Positions 23-19,730 of a stretch of 40,499 nt of DNA are shown here, one piece after another (the first letter of the stretch is position 1; the number at the start of each line of letters is the position of its first letter). The notes beneath the pieces are model-generated. The model was not told the DNA's origin and ran no database searches. It worked only from the letters and a program-made list of their open reading frames with translations. Source of the stretch: an uncultured Archangium sp. (lineage in GTDB: Bacteria; Myxococcota; Myxococcia; Myxococcales; Myxococcaceae); NCBI GenBank assembly GCA_903905455.1, contig CAIVGN010000073.1, forward strand, positions 1 through 40,499, given 5' to 3'. Both the position numbers and the translations under genes were made by a program.

Positions 23-1447
23 TCACCACTGGCTGCGCACCGAGAGGAACCCCCAGGTCGAGGGCGCCGTGCCGCGCGCCAGCGCCTCGAGCCCGGGCAT
101 GAACACCGAGACATTGCCCGCGAGCGACACGTTCTCGAACACCGGCACCGTCACCGAGAGATCGAGTTCCGTGCCCATGTTGCCACTGACCCGCGCGGGA
201 TCGGCCGCGAGGAACACCGTTCCGTTCGCCGCGTACCAGGCGCCCTTCGGGTCCCATGCGCGGAAGTGATGCACGTCGAGCCACACGTGCGCGCCCTTCG
301 GTCGAAAGCCGATGGTCCCGCGCGCCGCGACCACGTTCTGCCAGCCGACGAAGTCCATGTACCCAAGGTGCGCGTGGCCGGTGGGGAAGAGCTGGTGGAA
401 GGTGTGCTCCACGCCATCGCCCGGGGTGCCATCACCCGAGGCGCCGCTGAACTCGCCCAGCACGTACGGCGCGCCCCACGCCGACGCGAAGGTGTACGTC
501 GCCTTGAGCGCGAAGGCCCCGGCGAGTTGCGTGTCTTGCGCCGCGCCCACCTTGCCCGTCTGGAACGCGCCCTCCCCCACCACCGCGAGCCCCCCGAGCG
601 TCGCGAAGCCCCGCGCGCCGAGCGTGAGCCGGTTCGAGTCCTTGCCCGGCCCGAGCGCCGCCGAGCCCGGGTCCTCCAGCAGCCCCAACCCGTACACGTC
701 GAAGCCCGCCTTGCCGAAGCGCGCGCGCGCGTAGAGCCCGGTGAAGTAGCTGCCCGAGTTGTGGAAGCGTCCTCCGCCCGCATCAGCCACGAGCCAGGCC
801 GGCGGCTTGAGCATCATGCCGAAGGCATCGAGGGTCACCGAGGGCGAGGCCGTCACGCGCACGAAGAGCCCGTCGAAGGCCCGCGCGGACATCGCCCAGT
901 CGAGGTTGCCGATGAGCCGGTCCTCTCCGTACGAGAGCTCCTGGCGGCCGATGCGCACGTCGAGCCACGAGGTGGCCTTCAGGTCGAGGAACCCCTGGTG
1001 CAGCCCGGTGTTGGGGGTCACGGTGACGGTGTTCGGCTCCGAGCCCCAGGCGCGGACGTCTTGCAGCTCGAGGAGGAGGCCCACGCGCTCCTTCGCCGAG
1101 GCCCGCACCGTCAACCGCGCGCGCTGCTCGAAGGCCAGGGCATGGTCGTCGGTCGCGGCGTTGAAGTCAGCGCTGTCGCGGAGATCTCCCCGGGCGAAGT
1201 ACTGCCCGCCCACCGCCAGCGAGTAGTCCTGCCAGCGGAAGCGGAGCGGCCCCTCGGGCGCTGCGAGCGCCATGCTGTGGAACAGCTCGCCCGAGCTCTT
1301 GCGGCCCGGCCCCCACGGCGTGTTCACCACGTCGAAGCCCAGCGTCTGCGGGACCGCGGCGGCCAGGGGCGCAACGCCTCCATCGACGTCCTGCGCCCAG
1401 GCACCCAGCGACACCACGAAGACCAGCGTTCCCAGTACGCGACCCAT
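23..1447 (-). CDS. alginate-export-type outer-membrane porin
   Basis: Predicted outer-membrane beta-barrel of 474 residues. The start at 1447 is preferred over an upstream in-frame one because a GGGAGG ribosome site lies just ahead and the protein then opens with a clean signal peptide (MGRVLGTLVFVV...AWA|QD). The body has alternating amphipathic strands typical of the alginate-export porin family (long barrel, GRQELSYGEDRLIGNLDW-type motif near residue 190) and ends in an aromatic residue (SQW), as barrel proteins do. Relatives of this family are often found beside nitrate/nitrite respiration genes. Uptake of nitrite or another small anion is an inference; the substrate cannot be read from sequence. 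The gene lies 117 bp behind nnrS, and a 15-bp dyad identical in half-sites to the one between norC and nirK lies about 100 bp upstream, so it probably belongs to the same regulon while having its own promoter. Confidence 0.8.
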   Translation of the reverse strand: MGRVLGTLVFVVSLGAWAQDVDGGVAPLAAAVPQTLGFDVVNTPWGPGRKSSGELFHSMALAAPEGPLRFRWQDYSLAVGGQYFARGDLRDSADFNAATDDHALAFEQRARLTVRASAKERVGLLLELQDVRAWGSEPNTVTVTPNTGLHQGFLDLKATSWLDVRIGRQELSYGEDRLIGNLDWAMSARAFDGLFVRVTASPSVTLDAFGMMLKPPAWLVADAGGGRFHNSGSYFTGLYARARFGKAGFDVYGLGLLEDPGSAALGPGKDSNRLTLGARGFATLGGLAVVGEGAFQTGKVGAAQDTQLAGAFALKATYTFASAWGAPYVLGEFSGASGDGTPGDGVEHTFHQLFPTGHAHLGYMDFVGWQNVVAARGTIGFRPKGAHVWLDVHHFRAWDPKGAWYAANGTVFLAADPARVSGNMGTELDLSVTVPVFENVSLAGNVSVFMPGLEALARGTAPSTWGFLSVRSQW

Positions 1448-1539
1448 GAAGAGCCTCCCGGGGCGCGGGCATTGCAGCATTGCAGCCAGCGGCAACCGCC
1501 CGAGATGCGTGGCCCCGGTGCAGAGAGCCGTTCAGGGCT

Positions 1540-1554
1540 GTTTCACGTTGAAAC
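1540..1554. promoter_or_regulatory. inverted repeat GTTTCA-CGT-TGAAAC, putative operator
   Basis: Perfect 6-3-6 dyad in the 117-bp gap between nnrS and the porin, centred about 100 bp upstream of the porin start. The half-sites are identical to those at 8388-8402. It lacks the TTGAT/ATCAA half-sites of FNR/DNR boxes. An NO- or nitrite-responsive regulator is inferred from gene context only. Confidence 0.6.
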
Positions 1555-1564
1555 GTGACGGAGG

Positions 1565-2722
1565 TCAGTGTTCCTTGCCGTCGACGCGCTCGGCGAGGAG
1601 CAGCGGCGTGATGCGCGCCCCGACGAGCGCAAAGCCCAGCGACCAGAGCAGCGCCGAGAGCCACACCCAGGCCGGGTAGCGGGCGGGCAGCAACTGCGGC
1701 CCCATGGTGCGCGCGAGGAAGGCCAGGACCATCGACCCCAGCGCCGCGTGTTCGACACGCCCGAAGTGGATGGGGCGCCCGGTGTGACCGTTGGCGATGC
1801 GGATCAACATCGCGGGGATGATGAGCCCCATGGCGCCGAAGGTGAACACGTGGGTGGCCATCGCGCCGACCCACGAGCCGCGCACCGCGTCGAGCACCAG
1901 CTGGGCTGCGATGGCAAAGCCGCCGGCGAACATCACCGCCAACTCGATGCGGCGCAGCGCGAGGTGCGGGCTCCACGAGAGGAACCGCCCCACGAGCAGG
2001 GCCGCCAGCGCCAGGTCGAGCGCGCTGCGCACCGAGTCGGGCAGCCACGGCGCCGTCAGCAGCACCAACGCGAGGCCCTTGATGGCGGTGTCCACCACCA
2101 CCACGCGCGGCAGCACCCGCTGCGTCCCGGCCTTCATGAACGGCGGCAAGGTGCGCTCGAGCATCACGATGAACGCGAGGCGGAAGAGCGCGAGCGTGAG
2201 GTCGCGACCTTCGACGAAGTGCGTGAAGTCGAGCATCAGCGCCTTGCCCAACCCGAACACCGGCAAGGCGATGAGGAACAACAGGTTGTCCCGGTAGCTG
2301 TCCGTCTTGCGGTGTCGGATCAACGTCCACGACACCAGGCCCACCAACGCCACCGTGAACAGGTGTGCCGACAGCATGCGCAGCGGCTCGGGCCACGTGC
2401 CGCCGAACCACATGCCCACGCGCTCGAAGAGCCACGCGCCCACGAGGAACTGCAAGGTGGGCCCGTAGTGACCGCGCACCTGCACCCAGTTCTTCGAGGC
2501 CGTGAGCAGGAAGCCTCCGAGCACCGCGAAGCCGAACCCGAAGAACATCTCGTGCGCGTGCCACTGCAGGGGGGAAAGCCCGGGCGGCGGCGAGAGCATC
2601 CCCGCGTAGAGCAACGCCCAGGTGAGCGGCAACACCACCGCCGAGACCCACGCGAGCAGGAAGAATGGCCGGAAGCCCACCAGCCACAGGGGGTGCCCGT
2701 TCCAGGCGCGCGGCGGCCTCAT
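1565..2722 (-). CDS. nnrS: NnrS family membrane protein
   Basis: Polytopic membrane protein of 385 residues, the usual NnrS length, with about twelve hydrophobic segments. The opening WNGHPLWLVGFRPFFLLAW and the following LQWHAHEMFFGFGFAVLGGFLLTA are the hallmark N-terminal motifs of NnrS, including conserved histidines proposed to bind metal or haem. NnrS proteins occur with denitrification genes and are linked to NO stress protection; the exact biochemical role is not settled. The start at 2722 overlaps the stop of the preceding small membrane gene by 4 nt (ATGA), so the two are translationally coupled. It is the last gene of the norC-led leftward operon. No truncation is seen. Confidence 0.9.
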   Translation of the reverse strand: MRPPRAWNGHPLWLVGFRPFFLLAWVSAVVLPLTWALLYAGMLSPPPGLSPLQWHAHEMFFGFGFAVLGGFLLTASKNWVQVRGHYGPTLQFLVGAWLFERVGMWFGGTWPEPLRMLSAHLFTVALVGLVSWTLIRHRKTDSYRDNLLFLIALPVFGLGKALMLDFTHFVEGRDLTLALFRLAFIVMLERTLPPFMKAGTQRVLPRVVVVDTAIKGLALVLLTAPWLPDSVRSALDLALAALLVGRFLSWSPHLALRRIELAVMFAGGFAIAAQLVLDAVRGSWVGAMATHVFTFGAMGLIIPAMLIRIANGHTGRPIHFGRVEHAALGSMVLAFLARTMGPQLLPARYPAWVWLSALLWSLGFALVGARITPLLLAERVDGKEH

Positions 2723-2934
2723 CGCGTCACGAGGAAGGCGAGCAGCGCCGTGAGAGCCACGATGCCCGCCGAGAAGAGCGCGAGGTGGAGCCGGTGCGCG
2801 TGGCGCAACTCCATGAACTCGAAGCCCACCAGCAGCGCCTTCACGCCTCCGAGGGAGACCGCCACGAAGGGACGACCGCTCGCCACCGCCACGCCCGCGA
2901 GACCAACCAGTGCAGCCCAGGTGAGCAGTCGCAT
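2719..2934 (-). CDS. small membrane protein, cytochrome c oxidase subunit IV-like (NorF-like)
   Basis: A 71-residue protein with two or three hydrophobic helices (MRLLTWAALVGLAGVAVASG..., KALLVGFEFMELRHAHRLH, LALFSAGIVALTALLAFLV). Size, the central ELRHAH segment and position after norE match the prokaryotic cytochrome c oxidase subunit IV/NorF group, small membrane partners found in nor clusters and needed for full nitric oxide reductase activity in some denitrifiers. The ATG at 2934 was chosen because it follows the norE stop by 2 nt; a longer reading of the frame back to 3456 would overlap norE entirely. The stop overlaps nnrS by 4 nt. Function is inferred from family and context. Confidence 0.75.
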   Translation of the reverse strand: MRLLTWAALVGLAGVAVASGRPFVAVSLGGVKALLVGFEFMELRHAHRLHLALFSAGIVALTALLAFLVTR

Positions 2935-2936
2935 GG

Positions 2937-3497
2937 TCACGCCCTCGCGAAGAACAGGGGGAAGAGGAAGAACCACGCAAGGTCGCACAGGTGCCAGAAG
3001 AGCGCGACCGCGGCGACCGTCTCGAGCTCGGGCGGGCGAGCCCGGTGGAGCCGGAACGCGACCACCGAGAGCAGCACGAGGCCCACCAGCACGTGCGCCA
3101 GGTGGAAACCCGTACCCAGGAAGTAAGCGTCCCAGAAGTCGTCGACGCCGAGCCGGTGGCCTGCGGCGAGGTGACCCGCGGTGTCGTGGAGCTTGAAGGC
3201 GACGAAGGCGAGGCCCAACGCGATGGCGGCGAAGAGGAACCGTTGCGCACGGTGGGTGCGGGTGAGGCGGTAGGCGTGCACTGCTTCCGCGGCGAGCAGG
3301 CCGCTCGTGATCAGCAGCAGCGTGAAGACCAGGCCCACCGTCGAGGAGAGAGCAGCTTGGCCGGCGTGAAAGAGCGCCGGTTGCTGCATGCGGAGCACGC
3401 CGATGAGCGTGAAGACCATCGCGAAGGTGACCAACTCGAGGGCGACGATGAGCCACATGAGGACGCCACCGGGCGGCTCGGTGAGGGGCCTCGTCAT
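2937..3497 (-). CDS. norE: NorE, cytochrome c oxidase subunit III-like protein
   Basis: Membrane protein of 186 residues with five predicted helices. It belongs to the haem-copper oxidase subunit III family: the stretches WDAYFLGTGFHLAHVLVGLV (about residues 122-141) and ALFWHLCDLAWFFLFPLFF at the C-terminus are the typical subunit III signatures. At this size, shorter than true CoxC, and in a nor operon, it corresponds to NorE, an accessory protein for nitric oxide reductase assembly or activity. The start at 3497 overlaps the norD stop by 4 nt (ATGA). Together with the following small COX4-like gene it forms the usual norEF pair. Confidence 0.87.
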   Translation of the reverse strand: MTRPLTEPPGGVLMWLIVALELVTFAMVFTLIGVLRMQQPALFHAGQAALSSTVGLVFTLLLITSGLLAAEAVHAYRLTRTHRAQRFLFAAIALGLAFVAFKLHDTAGHLAAGHRLGVDDFWDAYFLGTGFHLAHVLVGLVLLSVVAFRLHRARPPELETVAAVALFWHLCDLAWFFLFPLFFARA

Positions 3498-5404
3498 GAC
3501 CTCAACGCCGAGGTGGTGACCGCGGCCAGCACGGTGACCAGCTCTTCAGGGCGATTCACCACCGACGCCCGCCCATGCCCGAACATCGACGGGAGCCACG
3601 CCTTCGCCGCCGGATCCACGGCCAACGCGTGCGTCACCACCCCACCCGCCTGCGCATCGAGCACCGCGCGGTGCACGTCGGCCACGCCGTAGCGCCCCTC
3701 GTAGCGGTCCACGTCGCTCGGCTTTCCATCGCTCACCAGCAACAGCAGCTTCTGGCGCGCACCGCACTTCTGCAGCTCGGCCGTGGCATGGCGGATCGCC
3801 GGCCCGATGCGCGTGAAGCCACCCGGCTCGAGGCTCGCCACGCGGGGCGCACCCACCGACCACTTCTCGGCGAAGCCCTTGGCCACGTAGAAGCGACAGT
3901 CCCGCCGTGACTGGCTGCAGAACGCCGCCACCGCCACCTCGTCGAACAGCCCATCGAGCGCGTCCCCCAGCGCGATGACCGCTTCCTTCTCCACGTCGAG
4001 CACCCGCCGGTTCGCCACCCACGCGTCCGTCGAGAGCGAAGCGTCGAGCAACACCAACACCGCCGTGTCCCGCGTGTGCCGCCGCCGCGTGGCGTAGAGC
4101 CGCGCCTCCGAAGAGTGCCCTGCCTTGAGTGAGCCGTAGCGCGCGACCACCGCGTCCACGTCGACGTCGGTGCCGTGCCGCTGCCGGAGCTTCCAGGCCC
4201 GCGACGCCTCGAGCTGCTCGAAGACCGCGCGCAACCCGGTGGTGGTCTTCAGGAGGCGTGACCGCATCGCCTGGAGCTGCGCGTCGGCATCGGTCGCCAC
4301 CGGCACGATGCGCGTGGTGAGCCGGCACCAGTCGCGTCGCCATTGGCGCTTCGCCTCGTCCCACTCGTCGTAGAGCGCCTCCGCCGGCGCGGAGGCGTCG
4401 TCCTCGAGATCTCCCACCGCGCCGTCGAGCAAGACGTCCGCGCGGTACAGGCTGCGTGCGCGCTGGTGGCTGCGCACCACCTGCCGCAGGTCGAGCTCGT
4501 CGAGCGCCTTCTGGTGCGCCGAGAGCTCGTCGTCTCCGTCGATGCGCTTGCTGCCGCCCTTGTACGTCTCGAGCGTGTGCATCTTCTCGAAGCTGTGCAC
4601 GAGCGGGTTCTCGGCGAGCTGGTTGTCGGGCTCCTGCACGCGCTCGAGGTGCGTGACGGCCTTCTTCTGGAGCTCCGTGCCGTCGGGCAGAGACGAGGCA
4701 TCGGCGCCCGGCGCCTGGGCCGCGGGGAGCGAGGCCGCTCCGGGGAGGAGTTCGCCCCACAACGGGACCGGGGGCAGCGGCTTCCTGGTGCGCAGGAAGT
4801 GACGGGCCGGGGGCGGGAGCGGAGTGCGGGCTCCGGAGTGGGCAGCGCGTGCCCAGGCCCAGGCTTCGGCCGGGAGCGCGTCGTCGGGCGTCGCGCTCAG
4901 CGAGAGCCGCACCGTGGCCTCGAGGGCTGCGGCTTCGGCGTCGTCGGGGGAAGGGAGCGGACGCGCTTCGAGGACCGCTCGCTCGAGCCGGGGAAGCAGG
5001 CCCGCGAGCGAGGGGTATTCATCGAGGAGGCGCGCGCGGACCTTCGCCGCCGACAGGGCGGTCTCGAGGAGCGGGTTTCCCTTGCGCGGGAGCGTCAGAC
5101 CCAGCGAGCGCGTCACGCAGCTCCAAGCCACCCGCACCAGCATCGCGGCGCGGTTCAGCTCGCCGCTCGGCGCGAAGTCGAGGTGTCGCGGGAGGTAGAG
5201 CACGTCTCCGCGAACGCCCCCGACGTCGTCGGTCAACGTCACCGTGAGGGGAGCGGAAGAGAGGAGCCGCGAGAGGACCTCCAGGCGCTCGCGCTCGGGC
5301 TCGAGGTCGATGCGGCGCGTGAGCGTTTGGGGAGTGGGCGACGTGGTGAGCAGGCGTCGGGTGGCGTCCCAGGCCGCGGAGAAGAGGGCTTCATCCCAGG
5401 ACAT
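3494..5404 (-). CDS. norD: NorD, VWA-domain nitric oxide reductase activation protein
   Basis: Cytoplasmic protein of 636 residues. The C-terminal third is a von Willebrand factor A domain with a MIDAS motif DASLS at about 454-458 and a following conserved SDGKPSDVDRYEGRYG segment that is diagnostic for NorD. The N-terminal half is the poorly conserved NorD extension with an acidic/charged middle. NorD works with the MoxR-type ATPase NorQ to activate NorCB, probably through metal (FeB) insertion. The ATG at 5404 is preferred to an upstream in-frame codon at 5455 because GGAG lies 8 nt ahead and the extra residues come from intergenic repeat DNA. It is separated from norQ by a stem-loop repeat, the only gap of any size inside the operon, and overlaps norE by 4 nt. 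Confidence 0.93.
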   Translation of the reverse strand: MSWDEALFSAAWDATRRLLTTSPTPQTLTRRIDLEPERERLEVLSRLLSSAPLTVTLTDDVGGVRGDVLYLPRHLDFAPSGELNRAAMLVRVAWSCVTRSLGLTLPRKGNPLLETALSAAKVRARLLDEYPSLAGLLPRLERAVLEARPLPSPDDAEAAALEATVRLSLSATPDDALPAEAWAWARAAHSGARTPLPPPARHFLRTRKPLPPVPLWGELLPGAASLPAAQAPGADASSLPDGTELQKKAVTHLERVQEPDNQLAENPLVHSFEKMHTLETYKGGSKRIDGDDELSAHQKALDELDLRQVVRSHQRARSLYRADVLLDGAVGDLEDDASAPAEALYDEWDEAKRQWRRDWCRLTTRIVPVATDADAQLQAMRSRLLKTTTGLRAVFEQLEASRAWKLRQRHGTDVDVDAVVARYGSLKAGHSSEARLYATRRRHTRDTAVLVLLDASLSTDAWVANRRVLDVEKEAVIALGDALDGLFDEVAVAAFCSQSRRDCRFYVAKGFAEKWSVGAPRVASLEPGGFTRIGPAIRHATAELQKCGARQKLLLLVSDGKPSDVDRYEGRYGVADVHRAVLDAQAGGVVTHALAVDPAAKAWLPSMFGHGRASVVNRPEELVTVLAAVTTSALRS

Positions 5405-5444
5405 GGTCACTCCGGTGTGGCGTCGCGGACGCCGTGCGTGGCGA

Positions 5445-5492
5445 CGGCCCCTCACCCCGCCCTCTCCCCGCTGTCGCAGGGCGAGGGAGAAC
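5445..5492 (-). repeat. REP-like stem-loop element, copy 1
   Basis: 48-bp element closely matching 36964-37012, in the same orientation, abutting the norQ stop codon. Read on the minus strand it folds as CCCTCGCCC-loop-GGGAGAGGG with one mismatch. Such CCCTCTCCCC elements are dispersed in many genomes and give spurious PHPALSPLSQGEGE-like peptides in translations. Here it lies between norQ and norD and could affect read-through or mRNA stability. Confidence 0.75.
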
Positions 5493-6262
5493 TAGAAACA
5501 CAGGTCGACCAGGTCTTGCAGCGCCCGCGCGGTCGGCGCGTCGTCCGTCAACGGCTGCACCAACGTCGACTGGCAAGCCACCCGCGGCGGCAGGCCCGCG
5601 TTGATCAACCGCGCCGCCATCACCAACAACCGCGTGGACACCGTCTCGGCCAGCGCCAGCGAGTCTTGCGCGCGCACCTTCGCCGCCCAGCTCACCAGCC
5701 GCTTCGCCACCTTCACGTCGAGGCCGGTCTCACCGACCAACACCTCGACCTCCACCGCCTCGGCCGGGTAGCCGAACTGCATCGACACGAAGCGCTGCCG
5801 CGTCGAGGGCTTGAGCTCCTTGAGCCCGCGCCGGTAGCCGGGGTTGAACGACGCCACGACCATGAACTCCGGCGGAGCGGAGAGCACCTCGTCGTTGCGG
5901 TCGAGGAACAACTGCCGCCGGTGGTCGGTCAGCGGGTGGAGCAGCACCACCACGTCTTCCCGGGCCTCGGCGACTTCGTCCAGGTACAGCACGCAGCCCT
6001 GCTTCACCGCGCGCGTGGCTGGCCCGTCCTGCCACACCGTGTCCCCGCCCCGCACCAACCAGCGCCCCACGAGGTCGGCGGCGCTCGTCTCGTCGTTGCA
6101 GGCCACGGTGATCAACGGCCGTTTCAGCTTCTGCGCCATGAACTCCACGAAGCGCGACTTGCCGCACCCCGTGGGCCCCTTGAGCAGCACCGGGAGCCGC
6201 TGGGCGTACGCGTGCTCGAAGACCGTCACCTCGTCACCCACCGGCCGGTACCAGCTCGTCAT
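5492..6262 (-). CDS. norQ: NorQ, MoxR-type AAA+ ATPase for NO reductase activation
   Basis: AAA+ ATPase of 256 residues with Walker A GPTGCGKS at 29-36 and Walker B LYLDE with D95/E96. The sensor region ASFNPGYRRGLKELKPSTRQRF is typical of the NorQ/CbbQ branch of MoxR ATPases. These form rings that act with a VWA partner (NorD) to remodel and activate a target enzyme, here NorCB. The ATG at 6262 is 4 nt after the norB stop. Length is normal for NorQ, and it ends at a TAG that overlaps the first base of a stem-loop repeat. No unusual features in the protein. Confidence 0.93.
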   Translation of the reverse strand: MTSWYRPVGDEVTVFEHAYAQRLPVLLKGPTGCGKSRFVEFMAQKLKRPLITVACNDETSAADLVGRWLVRGGDTVWQDGPATRAVKQGCVLYLDEVAEAREDVVVLLHPLTDHRRQLFLDRNDEVLSAPPEFMVVASFNPGYRRGLKELKPSTRQRFVSMQFGYPAEAVEVEVLVGETGLDVKVAKRLVSWAAKVRAQDSLALAETVSTRLLVMAARLINAGLPPRVACQSTLVQPLTDDAPTARALQDLVDLCF

Positions 6263-6266
6263 GGCG

Positions 6267-7613
6267 TCACTCCTTGGCGACCGCGACGCCGGTGACCGGC
6301 GCGTTGGGCATGCCGTAGCGGATGAAATTCCAGATGAAGGCCGCCGCGCCCAGGGTGAACAGCGACGCCGCGAGGATGAGCCCGATGAAGTGCACCGAGA
6401 TCTCCTTCTGCACGGTGAGGAAGTCCATCCCCACGCGGCGCTCGAGCACCACCTGCGTCACGCCAGCGACGGCGAAGGCGAGCGTCATGGCCACCATGCC
6501 CACGTTCGAGACCCAGAACGCGAAGCCCGCGGTGACGTGCTCGTACAGCTTGCGGCCGGTGAGCAGCGGCATCGAGTAGGTGATGATCCCCAGGATGAGC
6601 ATCGCGTAGGCGCCCCAGAAGGCCATGTGCCCGTGCATCGCGGTGACCAGCGTGCCGTGCGTGTACATGTTCACCTGCGGGATGGTGTGCGCGAACCCGA
6701 GGAAGCCGGCCCCCACGAAGCTCATGAAGGCGCAGCCCACCGTCCACAACAGGGCCACGCGGTTGGGGTGCGTGCGGCCGCCCTTCTTCGCCATGGCGAA
6801 GGCGTAGATGGCCATGCCCAGGAACGAGAGCGGCTCCAGCGCGCTGAACACCCCGCCGACCATCAGCCAGTACCTGGGGGTGCCGATGTAATAGTAGTGG
6901 TGGCCCGTTCCGAGGATGCCCGAGAGGAACGTGAAGCCCACGATGACGTAGAGCCACTTCTCGATGATCTCCCGATCGACGCCGGTCAGCTTGATCAGCA
7001 GGTACGAGAGGATCGCGCCCATGATCAGCTCCCACACGCCCTCGACCCACAGGTGCACCACCCACCAGCGCCAGAAGCTGTCCACGGTCTGGTTGTCGGT
7101 GGGGATCATGCCCGGGAGGTAGAGCAGCGCCGCCGCGAGCAACCCGAAGAAGAGCACCATCGACGTGGTCGACTTCTTGGGGCTCTTCCACACCGTCCAC
7201 CCGATGTTGGCGATGAACAGCAGCACGTCGGCCACCACCAGGAAGTCGAGGGGCCGGGGGATCTCCAGGAACTTGCGGCCTTCCCACCAGTTGAAGTGGA
7301 AGCCGATGAGCGCGGTCACGCCCACCACCACGAAGGCGATCAACTGCGCCCACGCCAGCTTCGGCCAGGCCAGCTCCCGGTCGGTCTCGTCGGGAATGAT
7401 CCAGTACGCGGCGCCCATGAAGCCCGAGAGCATCCACATCACCAGCAGGTTGGTGTGCGAAGCACGCGCGGTGTTGAAGGGGATCCACTGGTGGAGGCCA
7501 TCGAAGCCCGCGTGGGCGAAGGCCATGATGAAGCCGTAGACGATCTGCAGCGTGAACAACAACATGCACGTCGCGAAGAAGCCCCACGCGACCTTCTGAC
7601 TCTGGAACTTCAT
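6267..7613 (-). CDS. norB: nitric oxide reductase large subunit NorB (cNOR)
   Basis: Integral membrane protein of 448 residues with about twelve helices, the catalytic subunit reducing two NO to N2O. Length and the absence of an N-terminal quinol-oxidase extension place it with cNOR, consistent with norC next to it. Ligands are all visible: H53 and H329 (haem b), H327 (haem b3), and H187, H238, H239 for FeB. Glutamates E191 and E260 are also in place. From H187 onward the numbering is offset by exactly 20 from Pseudomonas aeruginosa NorB (H207, E211, H258, H259, E280, H347, H349). Its ATG overlaps the norC stop by 4 nt. It is likely fully functional. Confidence 0.97.
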   Translation of the reverse strand: MKFQSQKVAWGFFATCMLLFTLQIVYGFIMAFAHAGFDGLHQWIPFNTARASHTNLLVMWMLSGFMGAAYWIIPDETDRELAWPKLAWAQLIAFVVVGVTALIGFHFNWWEGRKFLEIPRPLDFLVVADVLLFIANIGWTVWKSPKKSTTSMVLFFGLLAAALLYLPGMIPTDNQTVDSFWRWWVVHLWVEGVWELIMGAILSYLLIKLTGVDREIIEKWLYVIVGFTFLSGILGTGHHYYYIGTPRYWLMVGGVFSALEPLSFLGMAIYAFAMAKKGGRTHPNRVALLWTVGCAFMSFVGAGFLGFAHTIPQVNMYTHGTLVTAMHGHMAFWGAYAMLILGIITYSMPLLTGRKLYEHVTAGFAFWVSNVGMVAMTLAFAVAGVTQVVLERRVGMDFLTVQKEISVHFIGLILAASLFTLGAAAFIWNFIRYGMPNAPVTGVAVAKE

Positions 7614-8305
7614 CGGGCCATCTCCTTCTGCGACGACAAGAACGTGACGAGCTCGGTCAACTGCGCTTCGTCGAGGGGAAGCTTCGGCATCTTGGTGCCC
7701 GGCTTGACGGCCGCCGGGTCACGCAACCAGCGGTCGAGGTAGGCGGCGTCGAAGCGCGAGCCCACGCCGTCGAGCGCCGGGCCCACCGTGCCGCCTGCGC
7801 CTTCCAGCGCGTGGCAGGTGATGCACAGCTGCGAGAAGATCAGCGGCCGCGGGGGCGCGTTGGGTCCCGCCGCGCGCTGGGCCGGGGCGCCCAGGGTGGG
7901 CTTCGCGGGGAAGCCGTTCAGGTCCACCTTGCCGCACCACTCGAAGAAAGCGACCAGGTCGGCGATCTGCGCGTCCTCGAAGTGGTAGTTGGTCATGTTC
8001 CGTTCGCCGGGAAACATGGCCTGCGGGTTCTTGAGCTGCGCCGCGATGAACACCGGCCCGCGCCGCTCGAACACCTTCGTCAGCTCCGGCGCGTAGTACG
8101 CCCCTTCACCGAAGAGCGTGTGGCAGCCCATGCAGTTGTTGTCTTCCCAGAGGTGCTTGCCGCGCTTCACGCTGTCGGTGAGCGCCGCGGCGTTGGTCCT
8201 CCCGGGAATCTGTTGGAACGTGTCCCACGTGAGCCCGAGGAAGATGGCCGACAACAAGACCGTCCCTCCCAGGAAGAAGGCCTTCGCCGCTGATTTCGAG
8301 AGCAT
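7610..8305 (-). CDS. norC: NorC with two c-type haem sites
   Basis: Membrane-anchored cytochrome c subunit of nitric oxide reductase, passing electrons to NorB. The N-terminal anchor (residues 8-28) and first haem site CMGCH (58-62), with the ERNMTNYHF ligand region near M104, match classic NorC of about 150 residues. This protein is 231 residues because it carries a second cytochrome c domain: an Ala/Pro-rich linker (about 133-155), CITCH at 161-165 and a KMPKL methionine at 206. A TTG further upstream (8335) could add 10 residues; the ATG at 8305 is preferred because the protein then begins like NorC homologues, though no strong ribosome site is visible for either. First gene of the leftward operon, divergent from nirK. 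Confidence 0.92.
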
Positions 8306-8387
8306 GGCGGGAGCGCTCTTCAGCGAACGTGCCAAGGCGGCCGCGCTCGGAGTCGTGCACCCGGGTCGTCAGCCGACGTTCCGTGTA

Positions 8388-8402
8388 GTTTCAGAGTGAA
8401 AC
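8388..8402. promoter_or_regulatory. inverted repeat GTTTCA-GAG-TGAAAC in the norC-nirK divergent promoter region
   Basis: Perfect 6-3-6 dyad centred 90 bp from the norC start and 109 bp from the nirK start, in an AT-richer patch of the 198-bp divergent spacer. The half-sites are identical to those at 1540-1554 upstream of the porin. A single dimer here could control both directions. The cognate regulator is unknown. Confidence 0.65.
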
Positions 8403-8503
8403 AAACTAGCCACCGGATTTCTCCCGGGATCGCGGGGGCTTCCGGTGGGCCTCGCCTTGCACTGGTCACCTCGGAGACAGCAACACCACCAGGGAGTCTG
8501 CCG

Positions 8504-9916
8504 ATGAACGTCGTGATCTTGAGTCTGGCGCTGTGGAGTCTGACCACCGCGTTGCCCGAGGAGAAGGCCCTCCTCACCGAGCCGCCGCTGGTGCCGCCGG
8601 CGATCACCCGCACCACGCCCGCCAGGGTGAAGGTGGAGCTGGAGGTCATCGAGAAGGTGATGCAGCTGGCCGACGGCGTCGACTACACGTTCTGGACCTT
8701 CGGCGGCACCGTGCCCGGGCGTTTCATTCGCGTTCGCGAAGGGGACACCGTCGAGTTCTGGCTGGAGAACCACCCCAACAACAAGCTGCCGCACAACATC
8801 GACCTCCACGCGGTGACGGGGCCGGGCGGCGGCGCGGCGAGCACCTTCACGGCGCCGGGCCACAAGAGCCGCTTCACCTTCCAGGCGCTCAACCCCGGCC
8901 TCTACATCTACCACTGCGCCACCGCGCCGGTCGGCATGCACATCGCCAACGGGATGTACGGGATGATCTACGTGCAGCCCAGGACGCCGCTGCCGAAGGT
9001 CGACCGCGAGTACTACGTGGTGCAGGGCGACTTCTACACGGACGCGGACTTCGGCCAGAAGGGACTGCAGCCGTTCTCCATGAAGCGCGCCATCGACGAG
9101 CGCCCCTCGTACGTGGTGTTCAACGGCAGCGCGATGTCCCTGGTCGGGGACCGGGCGCTCAAGGCGAAGGTCGGCGAGACGGTGCGGTTGTTCGTCGGCA
9201 ACGGCGGCCCGAACCTCGTCTCCAGCTTCCACGTCATCGGCGAGATCTTCGACCACGTGTACCCGGAGGGCGGCAGCAAGGCGCAGGACAACGTGCAGAC
9301 CACGCTCATCCCCGCGGGCGGCAGCGCCATCGTGGAGTTCAAGCTGAACACCGACGGCACGTACATCCTCGTGGACCACTCCATCTTCCGCACCTTCAAC
9401 AAGGGCTCGCTGGGCATGCTCAAGGTCGAAGGCCCGGGCCGCAAGGACATCTACTCGGGCAAGGAACTCGACGACGTGTACCTGGGCGACGAGTCGGTCG
9501 CGACGTCGATCAAGGCCACGCCGGCCACCACGCCGCTCTCGGGGATCAAGCCCGACGGCAAGGCGCTCTTCCTCGCCAACTGCTCCATGTGCCACCAGGC
9601 CGAGGGCCAGGGCGTGCCCGGCGCGTTCCCTCCGCTGGCCAAGAGCGACTACCTGGCCAACATCTCGAACAAGAAGCGCGGGGACCTCGTGGAGTTCGTG
9701 CTCCGCGGCAAGACCGGCAAGGTCGTGGTCAACGGCAACGAGTACAACGGCGTGATGACCCCGGTGGCCGGCCTCGACGACGAGAAGCTGGCCACGGTGC
9801 TCACCTGGGTGAGCAACGCCTGGGGCAACAGCGCGCCGGCCTTCACCACCGACGAGGTGAAGAAGCTGCGCGAGGCGCTGCCCGAGGTGAAGGCCACCCC
9901 CAACGGGCACGAGTGA
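8504..9916 (+). CDS. nirK: copper nitrite reductase NirK with C-terminal cytochrome c domain
   Basis: Periplasmic enzyme reducing nitrite to NO. It has 470 residues against about 340-380 for two-domain NirK, because a cytochrome c domain with CSMCH (360-364) is fused at the C-terminus. Type 1 copper ligands H97, C138, H146, M151 and type 2 ligands H102, H137, H292 are present, as are catalytic D100 and H243. The fused haem matches three-domain enzymes such as that of Ralstonia pickettii, in which the haem is thought to feed electrons to the type 1 copper. The ATG at 8504 has GGGAG 8 nt upstream and starts a signal peptide; an in-frame GTG at 8396 would run through the operator and is rejected. 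Followed after 4 nt by nirV. Confidence 0.97.
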
Positions 9917-9920
9917 CGCC

Positions 9921-10667
9921 ATGCGCGCGCTGCGGCTGCTGACCCTGCTCGTCCCCGCCTTCGCCTTCGCCGGCGAGGTGGTGACGTTACCCGGGGGCCG
10001 CTTCGCGCCGCTGTTTGGTCTCGACGTGGGACAGAGCGCCTTCCCCGTGGGGACCTTTCGACTCGACGTGCGGCCCGTGTCGCGCGCCGAGTTCGCCGCC
10101 TTCCTCGAGGGGAATCCCGCGTGGAGGAAGGGCAAGGCGCCCAAGACGCTGGTCGATGAGCGCTACCTGGCGACCTTCACCCCGGCGAAGCACCCCGCGG
10201 GGCCGGTGACCCAGGTCTCGTACTTCGCGGCGCGCGCGTACTGCGCGGCGAAGGGGGGCCGGCTGCCCAGCACGCTGGAGTGGGAATACGCCGCCGCGGC
10301 CGACGAGACCCGCCGCGACGCCTCGCGCGAAGCCGACTTCGCCCAGCGCATCCTCGACTGGTACGGCCAGCCCAACCGCGAGGGCGACCTCGAGCAGCCC
10401 GGCAGCCCGCGCAACGTCTACGGGCTCGAGGCGTTGCACGGGCTGGTGTGGGAATGGACGGACGACTTCAACGCCGTCTTCGTGTCGGGCGACAACCGCC
10501 AGGATGGCGACACCAACCCGAAGTTCATGTGCGGCAGCGGCGCGACCGGCAGCGCGCGGCGCGAGGACTACGCGGCCTTCATGCGCTACGCGTTGCGCTC
10601 GAGCCTCACGCCGCGCTCGACGTTGCCCAGGCTCGGTTTCCGTTGTGCCTACGAGGTGAACCCATGA
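9921..10667 (+). CDS. nirV: NirV, formylglycine-generating-enzyme-like protein
   Basis: Exported protein of 248 residues with a signal peptide (MRALRLLTLLVPAFAFAG) and an FGE-sulfatase (SUMF1-like) fold. Signature stretches are PVSRAEFAAFL, PVTQVSYFAARAYCAAKGGRLPSTLEWEYAA (about 92-125), VWEWTDDF and the terminal LGFRCAYE. Such proteins directly downstream of nirK are called NirV; their role in nitrite reductase maturation is assumed from conservation of the pair rather than proven. It starts 4 nt after the nirK stop and its stop overlaps the next ATG by 4 nt, so the three genes are one transcript. Confidence 0.88.
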   Translation: MRALRLLTLLVPAFAFAGEVVTLPGGRFAPLFGLDVGQSAFPVGTFRLDVRPVSRAEFAAFLEGNPAWRKGKAPKTLVDERYLATFTPAKHPAGPVTQVSYFAARAYCAAKGGRLPSTLEWEYAAAADETRRDASREADFAQRILDWYGQPNREGDLEQPGSPRNVYGLEALHGLVWEWTDDFNAVFVSGDNRQDGDTNPKFMCGSGATGSARREDYAAFMRYALRSSLTPRSTLPRLGFRCAYEVNP

Positions 10668-11215
10668 GAGCGCTCCTGTTGTGGTGCTGCCTGCTGGCGC
10701 CGCTGGCCCACGCGCAAGACGACGCGAAGAACGTGCTCGCCCTCGACACCACGTGGCGCACCGAGCAGGGCGAGCCGCTGAAGCTCTCCGCGCTCAAGGG
10801 GCGCTGGTACGTGCTGACCTTCGTCTACACCTCGTGCGCTGGCACCTGCCCGCTGACCACGCGCAAGCTGAAGCGTCTCGAGCAGGTCCTCGCGCAGGCC
10901 GGCAAGCCACTGGACCTGGTGGTGGTGAGCCTCGACCCCGCGCACGACACGCCCGAGGCGCTGGTCGCGTACCGCAAGCGGTACCAGCTCGAAGAGGCGA
11001 AGCGCTGGCGGGTGCTGGTCGGCGACGACGCGCAGGTGCGCACGCTGACCATGCTGCTCGAGTTCAAGTACACGAAGAACCCCGAGTCGGGCGTCATCCT
11101 CCACGACAACACGGTGTTCCTCGTGGGGCCCGAGGGCACGGTGAAGACGACCATGTCCTCGCTCGATCAACCGCTCGAGGCGTTCGTCGCCGCGGTTCCC
11201 AGCGCCCGGAAGTGA
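10664..11215 (+). CDS. SCO1/SenC-type copper chaperone
   Basis: Thioredoxin-fold SCO protein of 183 residues with a signal peptide (cleavage likely after LAHA). The copper ligands are visible: CAGTC (C58, C62) and H147 in ILHDNTVF. The family delivers copper to, or reduces thiols of, CuA sites in oxidases. Here it is translationally coupled (ATGA overlap) to nirV and co-transcribed with nirK, so copper loading of NirK is the likely role (inference). The adjacent cNOR has no copper, which supports NirK as the target. Confidence 0.9.
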   Translation: MRALLLWCCLLAPLAHAQDDAKNVLALDTTWRTEQGEPLKLSALKGRWYVLTFVYTSCAGTCPLTTRKLKRLEQVLAQAGKPLDLVVVSLDPAHDTPEALVAYRKRYQLEEAKRWRVLVGDDAQVRTLTMLLEFKYTKNPESGVILHDNTVFLVGPEGTVKTTMSSLDQPLEAFVAAVPSARK

Positions 11216-15371: not shown

Positions 15372-17054
15372 ATGATCCTCGCCACTGACACCCGTTCAAC
15401 GAACTCGGCCCCGGCGTTGCAAGGCCCGCCCGCCGTGTCGTCCCCCACCCCACTGCAGGGCCCCCCGCTCCCCACGGTGCGCGCAGCGTCGCTGTGGGAG
15501 GCCCTCGCCGGCGAGCCCTTCTCGTGGCTCACGTTCCATATTGGAACACTCGAGAACGAGACCACCCTCACCCAGCTCCGGGAAGCAGCGCTGACGTGGG
15601 CGCACGGCGTCACCGAAGCCCTCGGTCATGAAACACCGGCGCGCATCGGGGTGCTCTTGCCCAACGGCCCCGACTTCGTGGCGGCCTTCTTCGCGGCCCA
15701 GGCGCTCGGCGCCGCGGCCGTGCCCTTGCCGTGGCCGGTGGTCGACGGCGCGCCGGAGCGCGTGCGCGAGTCGCTCGAGCCGGTGCTGCAGCGCGCGAAG
15801 TTGTCGGCGTTGATCACCACGCCCTCGATGGCGACCGTGGCGTGGGGTGTGCCGCTGATCACCGCGCCGGGAACACAGCTCGCCACCCCGCGGCCCACCG
15901 GCCCCGACGGCACCGCCTTCATCCAGTTCACCTCCGGCTCGACCGGAGATCCCCGGGGCGCCGTCATCTCCCAGCGCGCCGCGCTCGCCTCCGCCACCTC
16001 CATGGGCGCCGCGCTCGGCCTGGGCCCCGCGGACGTCGGGGTCTCGTGGCTCCCCTTCTTCCACGACATGGGACTGGTCGGCGTGCTGCTCACCTCGCTG
16101 CTGGCGCGCTTCCCGGTGCACGTGCTGCGGCCCGGCGACTTCCTCATGCGCCCGCGCAAGTGGCTCGACCTCGTGTCGTCCACGCGGGCCACGCTCACCG
16201 TCGGCCCCAACTTCGCCTGGGAGCTCGTCACCCGCCGCGTCGCCCCCGAGGGCCTCGACCTCTCGGCGCTGCGCTGCGCGCTGAACGGCAGCGAGCCCAT
16301 TCACCGCACCACGCTCGATGGCTTCTCGAAGAAGTTCGCCGCCGCCGGCTTCAACCCCGCCGCGATGCTCCCGGTGTACGGCCTCGCCGAGGCCACCCTG
16401 GGCGTCGCCTTCTCCCGCCCCGGCGCGCTGCGCGAAGACGTGCTCGTCGAGGGCCGCCCCATTCCCAGCAACGGGCCGCTGGTGCCGGGCATGGAGCTCC
16501 GGGTGTTGGATGCGGAGGGCGTCGCCGTGCCCGAAGGCACCCAGGGCGAGCTGTGCGTGCGCGCCCCGATGGTGATGGGCGGCTACTTCGAGCACCCCGA
16601 GGCCACCGCCGCCGCGCTGCGAGACGGCTGGTTGCACACCGGCGACCTCGGCGTGGTGCGCGACGGCAACGTCTACGTCACCGGCCGCGAGAAGGAGCTC
16701 GTCATTCAATCGGGGAGGAAGTTCCACCCCTACGACATCGAGCGCGTGGTCGCCGGCATGGTGGACGCGACGCCCAACGGCGTGGCCGCGGTCAGCCGCC
16801 CCGACGCCGCCCAGGGCAGCGAGGCCCTGGTGGTAGTCATCGAGCTGCGCCGCGTCTCGGGCGCCATCGACCCCATGTTGATTCGCGGCGAGCTGCTCAA
16901 GGTGCTCGGCGTGCGCGCCGACGTCGTGGAGTTCGTCGCCGCCGGCGCGTTGCCCCGCACCACCAGCGGCAAGGTGAAGCGCCGGGCCGTCGCCCAGGGC
17001 CTCGCCGACCTGCTCACCCACGCGCCCGTCGTCACCGGAGCCGGAAACGCATGA
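15372..17054 (+). CDS. fatty acyl-AMP ligase-like adenylating enzyme
   Basis: ANL-superfamily enzyme of 560 residues. Motifs: P-loop FTSGSTGDPRGA at 186-197, SWLPFFHDMGLVG at 225-237, YGLAEATL at 336-343, GWLHTGDLG at 419-427 and the C-terminal catalytic lysine K534 in PRTTSGKVKR. The HDMGLVG and GDFLMRPRKWLDLVSSTRAT segments favour the FAAL subgroup, which activates fatty acids as acyl-AMP and loads them on an ACP rather than on CoA. The ACP encoded two genes downstream is the likely acceptor. The first 38 residues match no part of the family; the ATG at 15372 has a poor ribosome site, so the true start may be later. First gene of a five-gene operon, divergent from fnr; the stop overlaps the next ATG by 4 nt. 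Confidence 0.88.
   Translation: MILATDTRSTNSAPALQGPPAVSSPTPLQGPPLPTVRAASLWEALAGEPFSWLTFHIGTLENETTLTQLREAALTWAHGVTEALGHETPARIGVLLPNGPDFVAAFFAAQALGAAAVPLPWPVVDGAPERVRESLEPVLQRAKLSALITTPSMATVAWGVPLITAPGTQLATPRPTGPDGTAFIQFTSGSTGDPRGAVISQRAALASATSMGAALGLGPADVGVSWLPFFHDMGLVGVLLTSLLARFPVHVLRPGDFLMRPRKWLDLVSSTRATLTVGPNFAWELVTRRVAPEGLDLSALRCALNGSEPIHRTTLDGFSKKFAAAGFNPAAMLPVYGLAEATLGVAFSRPGALREDVLVEGRPIPSNGPLVPGMELRVLDAEGVAVPEGTQGELCVRAPMVMGGYFEHPEATAAALRDGWLHTGDLGVVRDGNVYVTGREKELVIQSGRKFHPYDIERVVAGMVDATPNGVAAVSRPDAAQGSEALVVVIELRRVSGAIDPMLIRGELLKVLGVRADVVEFVAAGALPRTTSGKVKRRAVAQGLADLLTHAPVVTGAGNA
15533..15547. promoter_or_regulatory. intragenic dyad GTTCCA-TAT-TGGAAC
   Basis: Perfect 6-3-6 inverted repeat inside the ligase gene, around codons 54-59. 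It differs from the 1540 and 8388 dyads by one symmetric base per half-site. Whether it is an operator or chance is unknown; it sits where conserved ligase sequence begins. Confidence 0.25.
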
Positions 17055-18046
17055 TGCTCGTCCTCGGCGCTGGCGGTTTCCTCGGCCTCAACACCGTGCG
17101 TGCGTGCCTCGACGCCGGCATCACCCCGCGCTGTGGCCGTCGCCCCCGCGGCAACGTGCTGGGCCTGCGCGGCCTCGGCGCGCCCCTGGTGAACACCGAC
17201 TTCACCCAACCCGAGTCGCTGCGCGAGGCGATGGCCGGGGTCGACGTGGTGATCCACGCCGCCGCCCACTACCCGCGCTTCTCGCATGACATGGCGGCCA
17301 CCATCGCCCGCGGCCTCACCGAGCTCGACGCGGTGCTCGACGCCGCCGCCGCCTCGGGCGTCGAGCGCCTGGTCTACGTCTCGAGCACCGCCACCGTCGC
17401 CCCGCGCGCAGACCTCGCGCCGTCGACCGAAGCCGACCTCTTCACCGCGTGCCCCGAGCACGGCACCTACCACGCGCTCAAGTGGACCCTCGAGCAGCGC
17501 GCGCTGACCGAGTCGCGCTTCGAGGTGCTCGTCGCCTGCCCCTCGGCCTGCCTCGGCCCCTACGACTGGAAGGTCGGCACCTCGGCCTTGCTGCTCTCCA
17601 CCGCGCGCAGCATCCCGCCCCCGCACCCGGAGGGCCTCATCTCCACCGTCGACGCCCGCGACGTGGCCCTGGCCCTGGTGCACCTGGCGACCGCGGCCGC
17701 GCCTCCGAAGCGCCTCGTGCTCTCGGGCGAGACGTCCGACGCGCACGAGCTGCTGGTGAGCGTCGCGCAGCGCTACGGCGTCGCGCCCCCGCCGCCCGCG
17801 CTCGCGCCCGACGAGGCCCGCGCCTTCGCCGACGCCCAGGAGCTCGAGGCCGCCGCGAAGAAGACCCGGGCCTCGCTGCCCCGCGAGCTCGTCGACCTCA
17901 TCGTGCACGCCCCGCGCCTCGACACCTCGCGCGCCCGCTCTCTCGGCCTGTCGTTCCGGCCGCTCTCAGAAACCCTCGACGCCTGGGACTCGTGGGCCCA
18001 GCGCATGGGGATGCTCCCCTCCCACGCTTCGAAGGCGACCGCATGA
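17051..18046 (+). CDS. extended SDR family NAD(P)-dependent epimerase/reductase
   Basis: Extended short-chain dehydrogenase of 331 residues. The Rossmann motif GAGGFLG is at 6-12, and the active-site Y140-x3-K144 (YHALK) follows the serine pair S111/S112 in YVSSTATV. Overall pattern is closest to the dihydroflavonol-4-reductase/3-beta-hydroxysteroid dehydrogenase-like branch, which oxidises or reduces hydroxyl/keto groups; in this setting a beta-keto or hydroxy acyl-ACP is a reasonable substrate (inference). The start is one of two adjacent ATGs (17051 or 17054); the first overlaps the ligase stop (ATGA). It couples to the ACP gene by a further 4-nt overlap. Confidence 0.83.
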   Translation: MMLVLGAGGFLGLNTVRACLDAGITPRCGRRPRGNVLGLRGLGAPLVNTDFTQPESLREAMAGVDVVIHAAAHYPRFSHDMAATIARGLTELDAVLDAAAASGVERLVYVSSTATVAPRADLAPSTEADLFTACPEHGTYHALKWTLEQRALTESRFEVLVACPSACLGPYDWKVGTSALLLSTARSIPPPHPEGLISTVDARDVALALVHLATAAAPPKRLVLSGETSDAHELLVSVAQRYGVAPPPPALAPDEARAFADAQELEAAAKKTRASLPRELVDLIVHAPRLDTSRARSLGLSFRPLSETLDAWDSWAQRMGMLPSHASKATA

Positions 18047-18303
18047 ACGACGAACTCCCGAACCGCATCGCAGCCATGGTGGCCCAGCTCACCGTCGTCA
18101 AGGCCGCCGACATCCGCCCCGAGCACCGCCTGCGTGAAGACCTCGGCCTCGACTCGGTCTGCTCGATGGAGCTGCTCTCGATGCTCGCCGAGGAGCTCGA
18201 CCTCGACGTGCCCATGGAAGAGGCCGCCCAGGTCACCACCGTCGCCGGCACCATCGAGATGGCGCGCCGCCACCTCGCGCTCAAGCAGGCCCCCACCGCA
18301 TGA
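18043..18303 (+). CDS. acyl carrier protein
   Basis: Small acidic carrier protein of 86 residues. The LGLDSVCSMEL motif places the phosphopantetheine-accepting serine at S38, at the head of helix II, and the spacing to the C-terminal helices is normal for ACPs. It is a stand-alone ACP within the operon rather than the housekeeping AcpP, which would lie beside fabD/fabF. It probably holds the acyl chain loaded by the ligase while the SDR, dehydrogenase and radical SAM enzymes act on it (inference). ATGA overlaps at both ends. Confidence 0.9.
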   Translation: MNDELPNRIAAMVAQLTVVKAADIRPEHRLREDLGLDSVCSMELLSMLAEELDLDVPMEEAAQVTTVAGTIEMARRHLALKQAPTA

Positions 18304-19730
18304 GCGCCGACGTCGTCGACGCCCTGCTGCGCGGCGTGAAGGACTTCACCAAGCGCCACGTGCACGCCCTCGCCATCGACGAGGCGCACCGCATTCCCCC
18401 CGAGGTGCTCAGCGGCTTCGCCGAGCTGGGCCTCTTCGGCCTCACCCTGCCCCCCGAGTTCGGCGGCGCCGGGCTCACCGCGCTCGATGCCACGCGCGTC
18501 ATCACCACCATCGCCCAGGCGGACCGCTCGGTGGCCACCACCATCGGGCTCCACCTCGGCCTGGGCACCCGCGGCCTCGTCGCCTGGGGCACGCCCGCCC
18601 AGCACGAGCGCTGGCTGCCGTCGTTGGCCAGCGGCGAGGTCATCGCCGCCTTCGCCACCACCGAGCCCGGCGCCGGCAGCGACCTCTCGGCGTTGCAGTG
18701 CCTCGCCGTGGCCAACGGCGCGGGGCAGTTCACCGTCAACGGCAACAAGATCTACGTCACCAACGGCGGCCTCGCGTCGCTGCTCACCATCACCGCGGCC
18801 ACCCCCGGCCTCGGCGGCGCGGCCCGGGGCACCAGCCTCTTCCTCGTCGACCCGAAGACGAAGGGCGTGCTGCGCCAGCCCGAGGAGCACAAGCTGGGGC
18901 TGCGCGGCTCGTCGACCACCGCCTTCGTGTTCGACGAGACGGTGCTCCCCCCCGACGCGCTGCTCGGCGAGCCTGGCCAGGGCACCGCGTACCTCCACCA
19001 CGTGCTCTCGTGGGGCCGGCTCCTGCTGAGCGCCGGCTGCGTGGGCACCGCCACCGCCGCCCTCGAGGCCACGCTGCTCCACGTGCACGCGCGCAAGCAG
19101 TTCCACCGCGCGTTGATCAAGCAGGAGGTGGTGCAGCAGCAGCTCGCCCGCGCCGCGGCCATCAAGTACGCGATGTCGGCCCTCGTGGCGCACGCGGCCG
19201 CCAGCGAAGATGACCACGCGGCCCTCGCCCGCCTCACCACCAGCGCCAAGGTGTTCTGCAGCGACGGCGCGGTGGAGCTCGCCGACCTCGCCATCCAGCT
19301 CCACGGCGGCGCCGGCTACATCGAAGACACCGGCGTGGCGGTGATGCTCCGCGACGCCCGCGTCACCCGCATCTTCGAGGGCGCCAACGACGTACTCCTC
19401 ACGCACGCGGGCCTGATGGAGCTGACCGAGCCCCAGCCCGGCAAGCCCGACGCCCTCGACGGCGCCGTCGAGCAGCGCCGCCAGAAGATCCTCACCGAGT
19501 CTCCCGGCGTGCGCGCGCTCAACCGCAAGGTCGAACAGCACGCGCTGGGCAAGGCCGTGGTGTGGCGTGACGCCGCCCGCGCGGCCCTCGCCCAGGCCCG
19601 AACCCCCCTCGAGGCCGCCGCCGCCGCGCTGGTGCGCGACGAGGCCATCGCCCTCGCTGCCCGCCCCGCGCTCGACGCGCCCGCCGTCACCACCCTCACC
19701 GCTTCGCTCCTGGAAGGCGTTTTCCCGTGA
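18300..19730 (+). CDS. acyl-CoA dehydrogenase family flavoenzyme with C-terminal extension
   Basis: FAD-dependent dehydrogenase of 476 residues, about 90 longer than standard acyl-CoA dehydrogenases because of a C-terminal helical extension after residue 380. Family marks: AAFATTEPGAGSDLS (117-130), QLHGGAGYIEDTGV (333-346) and the catalytic base E360 in RIFEGAND. It should introduce an alpha,beta double bond into an acyl thioester; with an ACP and a ligase in the same operon the substrate may be acyl-ACP, as in some secondary-metabolite pathways. The extended form recalls the very-long-chain type. It starts in a 4-nt overlap with the ACP gene and ends in a GTGA overlap with the radical SAM gene. 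Confidence 0.9.
   Translation: MSADVVDALLRGVKDFTKRHVHALAIDEAHRIPPEVLSGFAELGLFGLTLPPEFGGAGLTALDATRVITTIAQADRSVATTIGLHLGLGTRGLVAWGTPAQHERWLPSLASGEVIAAFATTEPGAGSDLSALQCLAVANGAGQFTVNGNKIYVTNGGLASLLTITAATPGLGGAARGTSLFLVDPKTKGVLRQPEEHKLGLRGSSTTAFVFDETVLPPDALLGEPGQGTAYLHHVLSWGRLLLSAGCVGTATAALEATLLHVHARKQFHRALIKQEVVQQQLARAAAIKYAMSALVAHAAASEDDHAALARLTTSAKVFCSDGAVELADLAIQLHGGAGYIEDTGVAVMLRDARVTRIFEGANDVLLTHAGLMELTEPQPGKPDALDGAVEQRRQKILTESPGVRALNRKVEQHALGKAVVWRDAARAALAQARTPLEAAAAALVRDEAIALAARPALDAPAVTTLTASLLEGVFP

Follow-up and report, generated by a model that had tools for sequence, protein, structure and literature searches.

Two dyads in a denitrification island

The stretch analysed here, 40,499 nucleotides from a contig of an uncultured Archangium species and called the window throughout, carries a denitrification island in which two inverted repeats of the form GTTTCA-N3-TGAAAC lie upstream of a porin gene, norC and the nitrite reductase gene nirK (Table 1). 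On the minus strand the order is norC, norB, norQ, norD, a norE-like COX3-type gene, a COX4-type gene and nnrS, followed by dyad 1 and the porin, while dyad 2 occupies the gap between norC and the divergent nirK. Relatives share the order of nirK with its C-terminal cytochrome c, the FGE-sulfatase-type gene and the SCO1 gene. An earlier note on this DNA had described two perfect dyads with identical half-sites, serving three start codons at 90-110 bp. Both dyads are indeed exact, and the distances hold for the porin ATG (1447, minus strand; 92 bp from the edge of dyad 1) and the nirK ATG (8504, plus strand; 101 bp from the edge of dyad 2), whereas the norC ATG (8305, minus strand), at 82 bp from the edge of dyad 2, is near but outside the range. 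Dyad 1 also lies 10 bp beyond the end of nnrS and faces the porin.

Table 1. Positions of the dyads, promoter elements and genes; positions are those of the window unless another contig is named
Feature	Position	Strand	Details
Dyad 1	1540-1554	.	GTTTCACGTTGAAAC; exact GTTTCA-N3-TGAAAC; putative enhancer site, porin promoter
Dyad 2	8388-8402	.	GTTTCAGAGTGAAAC; exact GTTTCA-N3-TGAAAC; putative enhancer site common to norC and nirK
Extra half-site GTTCC	8378-8382	+	10 bp before dyad 2; GTTCC/GTTTC at equal spacing in G091, G092, G009, G052
Sigma54 -24/-12 of nirK	8446-8461	+	TGGGCCTCGCCTTGCA
Putative sigma54 element of norC	8319-8334	-	TGGCACGTTCGCTGAA; -24 perfect, -12 atypical
Sigma54-like -24/-12 of porin	1473-1488	-	TGGCTGCAATGCTGCA; porin ortholog in G011, TGGCCCCAACGCTGCA
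Outer-membrane porin (Alginate_exp family)	23-1447	-	Pfam PF13372, 7.3e-37
nnrS	1565-2722	-	Pfam PF05940, 1.4e-72
COX4-type gene, norE-like COX3, norD (VWA), norQ, norB	2719-7613	-	Pfam; order kept in relatives
norC	7610-8305	-	Two cytochrome c domains (Pfam)
nirK, copper nitrite reductase	8504-9916	+	TIGR02376, 354 bits, cut-off 296; C-terminal Cytochrom_C domain
FGE-sulfatase-type gene and SCO1 gene	9921-11215	+	Pfam
Hemerythrin-like gene	G000:C107:31386-31874 (L192:6387-6875)	-	Own dyad and sigma54-like element

The dyad is rare. Within the window the motif had three matches at two or fewer mismatches against 0.27 expected from shuffles; the third, at 15533-15547, was set aside as chance, since it falls inside an AMP-ligase reading frame and is not kept in a genome of the same genus (G011). 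In the whole genome (8,606,101 bases on 251 contigs) the exact dyad occurs twice, both times in the window and nowhere else, against 0.028 copies expected from base composition, and the reversed control pattern of the exact dyad gave no match across the same 8.6 Mb. The flanks of the two dyads differ, and they are therefore not copies of one stretch.

As the earlier note had held, the dyads are not FNR or DNR boxes: TTGAT-N4-ATCAA was found in neither intergenic region with up to three mismatches allowed, and an NsrR-like GATGYAT-N5-ATRCATC in neither with up to five. The NorR-type pattern GT-N7-AC was absent ahead of the porin and matched once, at chance level, close to dyad 2, with no tandem triplet. 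On these relaxed intergenic scans, consensus sites of FNR, DNR, NnrR, NsrR, HcpR and NorR were rejected as an account of the dyads.

Conserved sites and sigma54-type promoters

Orthologs of norC with 77-83% identity were found in seven other genomes of the family, and where the norC-nirK gap is retained it holds an altered dyad in place (GTTTCACTCTGGAAC in G091, GTTTCAGAATGAGAC in G052 and GGTTCAGTGTGAAAC in G009). In G011 the island is rearranged, and a separate dyad with two to three mismatches accompanies each of nirK, the porin gene and norC; a dyad precedes the porin both there and in G094. The conservation that the earlier note had looked to upstream of norC and nirK in related species thus exists, in a degenerate form. 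Across these sites the consensus loosens to GTTYCR-N3-YGRAAC, and a further half-site stands 10 bp off on one of the two sides.

Sigma54-type -24/-12 elements are present downstream of the sites for nirK, the porin and several nosZ genes. Measured from the dyad centre, the nirK element TGG-N10-TTGCA lies at 49-52 bp in five genomes and at 72 bp in G011, and the norC element TGGCACG-N4-CTGAA at 59-63 bp in seven. A GG-N10-GC match of such quality is met by chance in 2.6% of comparable windows, and the strong point is therefore its recurrent position across genomes. The genome contains the sigma54 gene rpoN. Because sigma54 polymerase requires an enhancer-binding activator, we read the dyads as enhancer sites; from their sequence context they look like sites of a sigma54 activator rather than FNR, DNR or NsrR operators.

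A candidate regulator with four cysteines

A family-wide search for the exact dyad found, in G047, one copy abutting the start codon of a gene for a 342-aa bacterial enhancer-binding protein (bEBP). Its ortholog in the present genome lies outside the window (G000:C107:59892-60926, minus strand) and has 344 aa; orthologs are 59-79% identical to it, and the next paralogs are about 50% identical to the search query. The protein begins with some 40 residues carrying C-x10-C-x2-C-x11-C (hereafter Cys4), followed by an AAA+ sigma54-interaction domain (PF00158, 1.4e-70) and a C-terminal Fis-type helix-turn-helix (PF02954, 8.4e-14); a domain search found no GAF, PAS or receiver domain in it. The GAFTGA loop, which contacts sigma54, is invariant in an alignment of 14 sequences. 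By its AAA+ domain, GAFTGA loop and Fis-type helix-turn-helix the protein is predicted to be a sigma54 enhancer-binding protein. The interpretation of the earlier note, a shared new non-FNR operator whose factor is encoded elsewhere than in the window, is supported by this likely regulator gene. The note made no mention of the sigma54-type promoters, and the sites at nosZ, the regulator gene and the hemerythrin-like gene lie outside the stretch it covered. Two other bEBPs were dropped as candidates: a 339-aa protein at C128, considered first, because the search for orthologs led to C107 instead, and a response-regulator bEBP inside the window (25506-26849), which no evidence ties to the dyads.

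All 14 full-length orthologs have a dyad at or just before their own start codon; 12 of these sites fit GTTYCR-N3-YGRAAC, those of G009 and G046 fit only if one more mismatch is allowed, and a truncated copy of the regulator in G095 also has a site at its start. Several genomes have a TTGACG box roughly 17 bp upstream of this dyad, so that binding of the regulator would cover a sigma70 promoter, which suggests autorepression through the own-start site.

Allowing the degenerate pattern GTTYCR-N3-YGRAAC, we found eight sites in the genome, against one for the reversed control, and four of them belong to the regulator, nosZ, norC/nirK and the porin. The fifth site (C107:32077) points towards a small gene for a hemerythrin-like protein, and the sigma54-like GGGCACGCGCCGTGCA lies between the two. 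This gene is 28 kb from the regulator here, yet it carries the site, and its homologs stand directly beside the regulator in G008, G010, G012, G046, G047, G052, G090, G091, G092 and G095. In G154, from another family of the phylum, the hemerythrin-like gene is divergent from the regulator and is preceded by a dyad and TGGCACTCGCCGTGCA. The hemerythrin-like protein may be a partner of the sensor. The remaining three sites were set aside as coding, tRNA-adjacent or unlinked; those at C115 (before a tRNA) and C218 have no N-oxide gene beside them. In relatives the degenerate pattern recovered nosZ (G046), the porin (G094) and norC (G095). G134 belongs to a different family of the order; there a second dyad is flanked on one side by a nirK-like gene region and on the other by a gene whose domains are DUF1858, iron-sulfur-assembly and, weakly, ScdA_N. 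An exact dyad near ftsH (G011:C86) looks unrelated. The cytochrome c gene that follows nosZ has seeming sites in front of it, which are mostly start-codon context (ATGAAA) and were discounted.

In this genome the regulator and a clade II nosZ (TIGR04246, 897 bits, cut-off 625) are neighbours separated by a second dyad, and in most relatives the regulator-nosZ order recurs with the hemerythrin-like gene beside the regulator. Across 96 family genomes, 14 have both nosZ and the regulator, 5 nosZ only, 2 the regulator only and 75 neither (Fisher 5e-11, a value that overstates independence as the genomes are related). All eight nirK-norCB islands are in regulator-bearing genomes. The five genomes with a clade II nosZ and no ortholog of the Cys4 bEBP (G053, G056, G067, G068 and G079) are from another genus of the family, and nosZ must therefore be regulated otherwise there.

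In a tree, the Cys4 bEBPs, including those of other Myxococcota families, form one clade against the other bEBPs of the set (support 100/98). Among its distant members, G105 has GSFTGA, and G110 and a second G009 copy have no matching loop; not all of them, therefore, need drive sigma54. That second, divergent G009 protein is encoded directly before a nosZ (L185:6590-9733), with ATTTCAAAGTGAAAC right behind its reading frame. For the Cys4 region itself no convincing solved structural relative was found, and its four conserved cysteines could belong to either an iron-sulfur (Fe-S) or a zinc (Zn) site.

Proposed mechanism, alternatives and known systems

Taken together, we consider it probable, with good confidence, that a sigma54-dependent activator uses the dyad as its enhancer site, and the Cys4 bEBP of C107 is the likeliest such activator. 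Dimers of this protein would bind GTTYCR-N3-YGRAAC together with the extra half-sites 10 bp away; a signal at the N-terminal Cys4 motif would lead to assembly of the AAA+ ring, which would open sigma54 polymerase at -24/-12 promoters some 50-65 bp downstream. The predicted outcome is a joint switch-on of nirK, norCB, the porin, nosZ and the hemerythrin-like gene, while the dyad at the regulator's own start codon would allow self-repression. Binding and activation by the Cys4 bEBP are what we infer from the arrangement of sites, promoters and domains. We give about even odds to a signal that is either nitric oxide (NO) itself or the harm it does to an Fe-S or Zn centre of the Cys4 motif; NO is the likeliest candidate because nor, nnrS and the hemerythrin-like gene are in the target set, and oxygen, redox state or copper may act instead. 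A factor sensing NO or nitrite is what the earlier note had offered as a possibility.

Several observations weigh against this assignment. The -12 element of norC is atypical, and the promoter of nosZ here is weaker, at a greater distance (108 bp) from its dyad. The degenerate consensus was partly derived from the regulator sites themselves. Two genomes, G044 and G048, have the regulator without nosZ. In a structure model (14 sequences, no metal) the Cys4 motif is disordered, which is compatible with a metal site and does not show one. Finally, the genome has 52 bEBP matches, and another of them could share the site. This last point leads to the alternative that a different bEBP binds the dyads and that the Cys4 bEBP is one more target, since a regulator gene with a dyad in front of it may be a regulated gene and need not encode the binding protein. 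The Cys4 clade, however, tracks nosZ and the island across genomes, and a site abutting the start codon is more readily explained by self-binding than by activation through a different bEBP; we therefore judge this alternative improbable.

A protein of another kind, for example an HxlR-type winged-helix regulator, might own the dyad, with the Cys4 bEBP merely neighbouring nosZ. In other genera of the family, GTTTCATNATGAAAC or GTTTCAAAATGAAAC indeed separates an HxlR-type gene from a divergently oriented dehydrogenase or transporter gene (L003, L007, L023, L027; dyad at 1501), so the HxlR family can use such a dyad. But the genomes with these HxlR-adjacent dyads have neither the Cys4 bEBP nor the island, whereas in the bEBP genomes the sites stand at the bEBP's own start, nosZ, norC/nirK and the porin, together with sigma54 elements, and no HxlR gene was seen beside them. 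We take the HxlR-adjacent dyads as a look-alike operator of an unrelated regulator, and consider ownership by such a protein unlikely. That the dyads arose by chance or by copying is very unlikely: the motif is short, with 12 fixed bases, but its excess over expectation, the unlike flanks and the conservation across genera speak against it. Control by FNR/DNR/NnrR, NsrR or HcpR, the usual regulators of such genes (PMC1274295), is scarcely credible for the dyads, as no site of these regulators was found in the two intergenic regions at relaxed thresholds; extra control of this kind may act elsewhere.

Returning to the Cys4 bEBP as the probable activator, its closest known parallel is NorR, also a bEBP, whose enhancer sites are likewise inverted repeats and precede the sigma54 promoters of NO reductase genes. 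NorR sites have the form GTCA-N3-TGAC, which the dyad core TCA-N3-TGA resembles. NorR is an NO-responsive sigma54 activator of norVW/norAB (PMC1274295, PMC2941729), works from three sites and is controlled by a GAF domain (PMC2941729); its sites, like those of NorR2, DNR, NnrR, NsrR and HcpR, have been described, and for the single site at norR2 autorepression was proposed (PMC1274295). The site at the regulator's own gene thus recalls NorR2 in Vibrio. The differences are that the present protein has a Cys4 region of about 40 residues in place of NorR's N-terminal GAF with mononuclear iron, that its proposed operator is GTTYCR-N3-YGRAAC rather than three tandem GT-N7-AC, and that its predicted regulon takes in nirK and nosZ. 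Against the NorR family model it scores 327.7 bits, short of the cut-off (476 bits), which nothing in the genome reaches, and no NorR ortholog was found. The predicted logic (enhancer binding, AAA+ ring, opening of sigma54 polymerase) is NorR-like, and by model, GAF domain and site the protein falls outside the NorR family.

DNR and NnrR, of the CRP/FNR type, co-regulate nir, nor and nos genes (PMC1274295). Such joint control is shared with the system proposed here, but they belong to another protein family, act at sigma70 promoters and use TTGAT-N4-ATCAA. The AAA+ core is shared with NifA, ZraR and NtrC; the regulator's best NCBIfam models are NifA, AtoC, NtrC and NorR, all scoring below their equivalog cut-offs, and ZraR is the best solved structure match for the core, whereas no GAF, PAS or receiver domain was found in the present protein.

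No published description of this operator and regulator was found in the open-access literature covered, and the Cys4 regulator is apparently undescribed. Denitrification genes of Myxococcota have been reported in sludge (PMC11821767). It is conceivable, though we would put it somewhat below an even chance, that the Cys4 proteins form a new class of sigma54 activator in which a Cys4-bound metal site labile to NO or oxygen, possibly together with a hemerythrin-like partner, controls nirK-nor-nosZ in Myxococcota, or reduction of nitrous oxide (N2O) alone in some species. The Cys4 motif could represent a novel type of bEBP sensor for NO or redox state, and a candidate regulator, operator and target list are now at hand for direct testing; they bear on when these bacteria produce or consume N2O, a greenhouse gas.

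Near the island, AMP-ligase, carrier protein, acyl-CoA dehydrogenase and radical SAM genes occupy 15372-21016. In G011 (L076) these genes adjoin norC, with the dyad in between and transcription running in opposite directions; they are possibly a linked biosynthetic operon.

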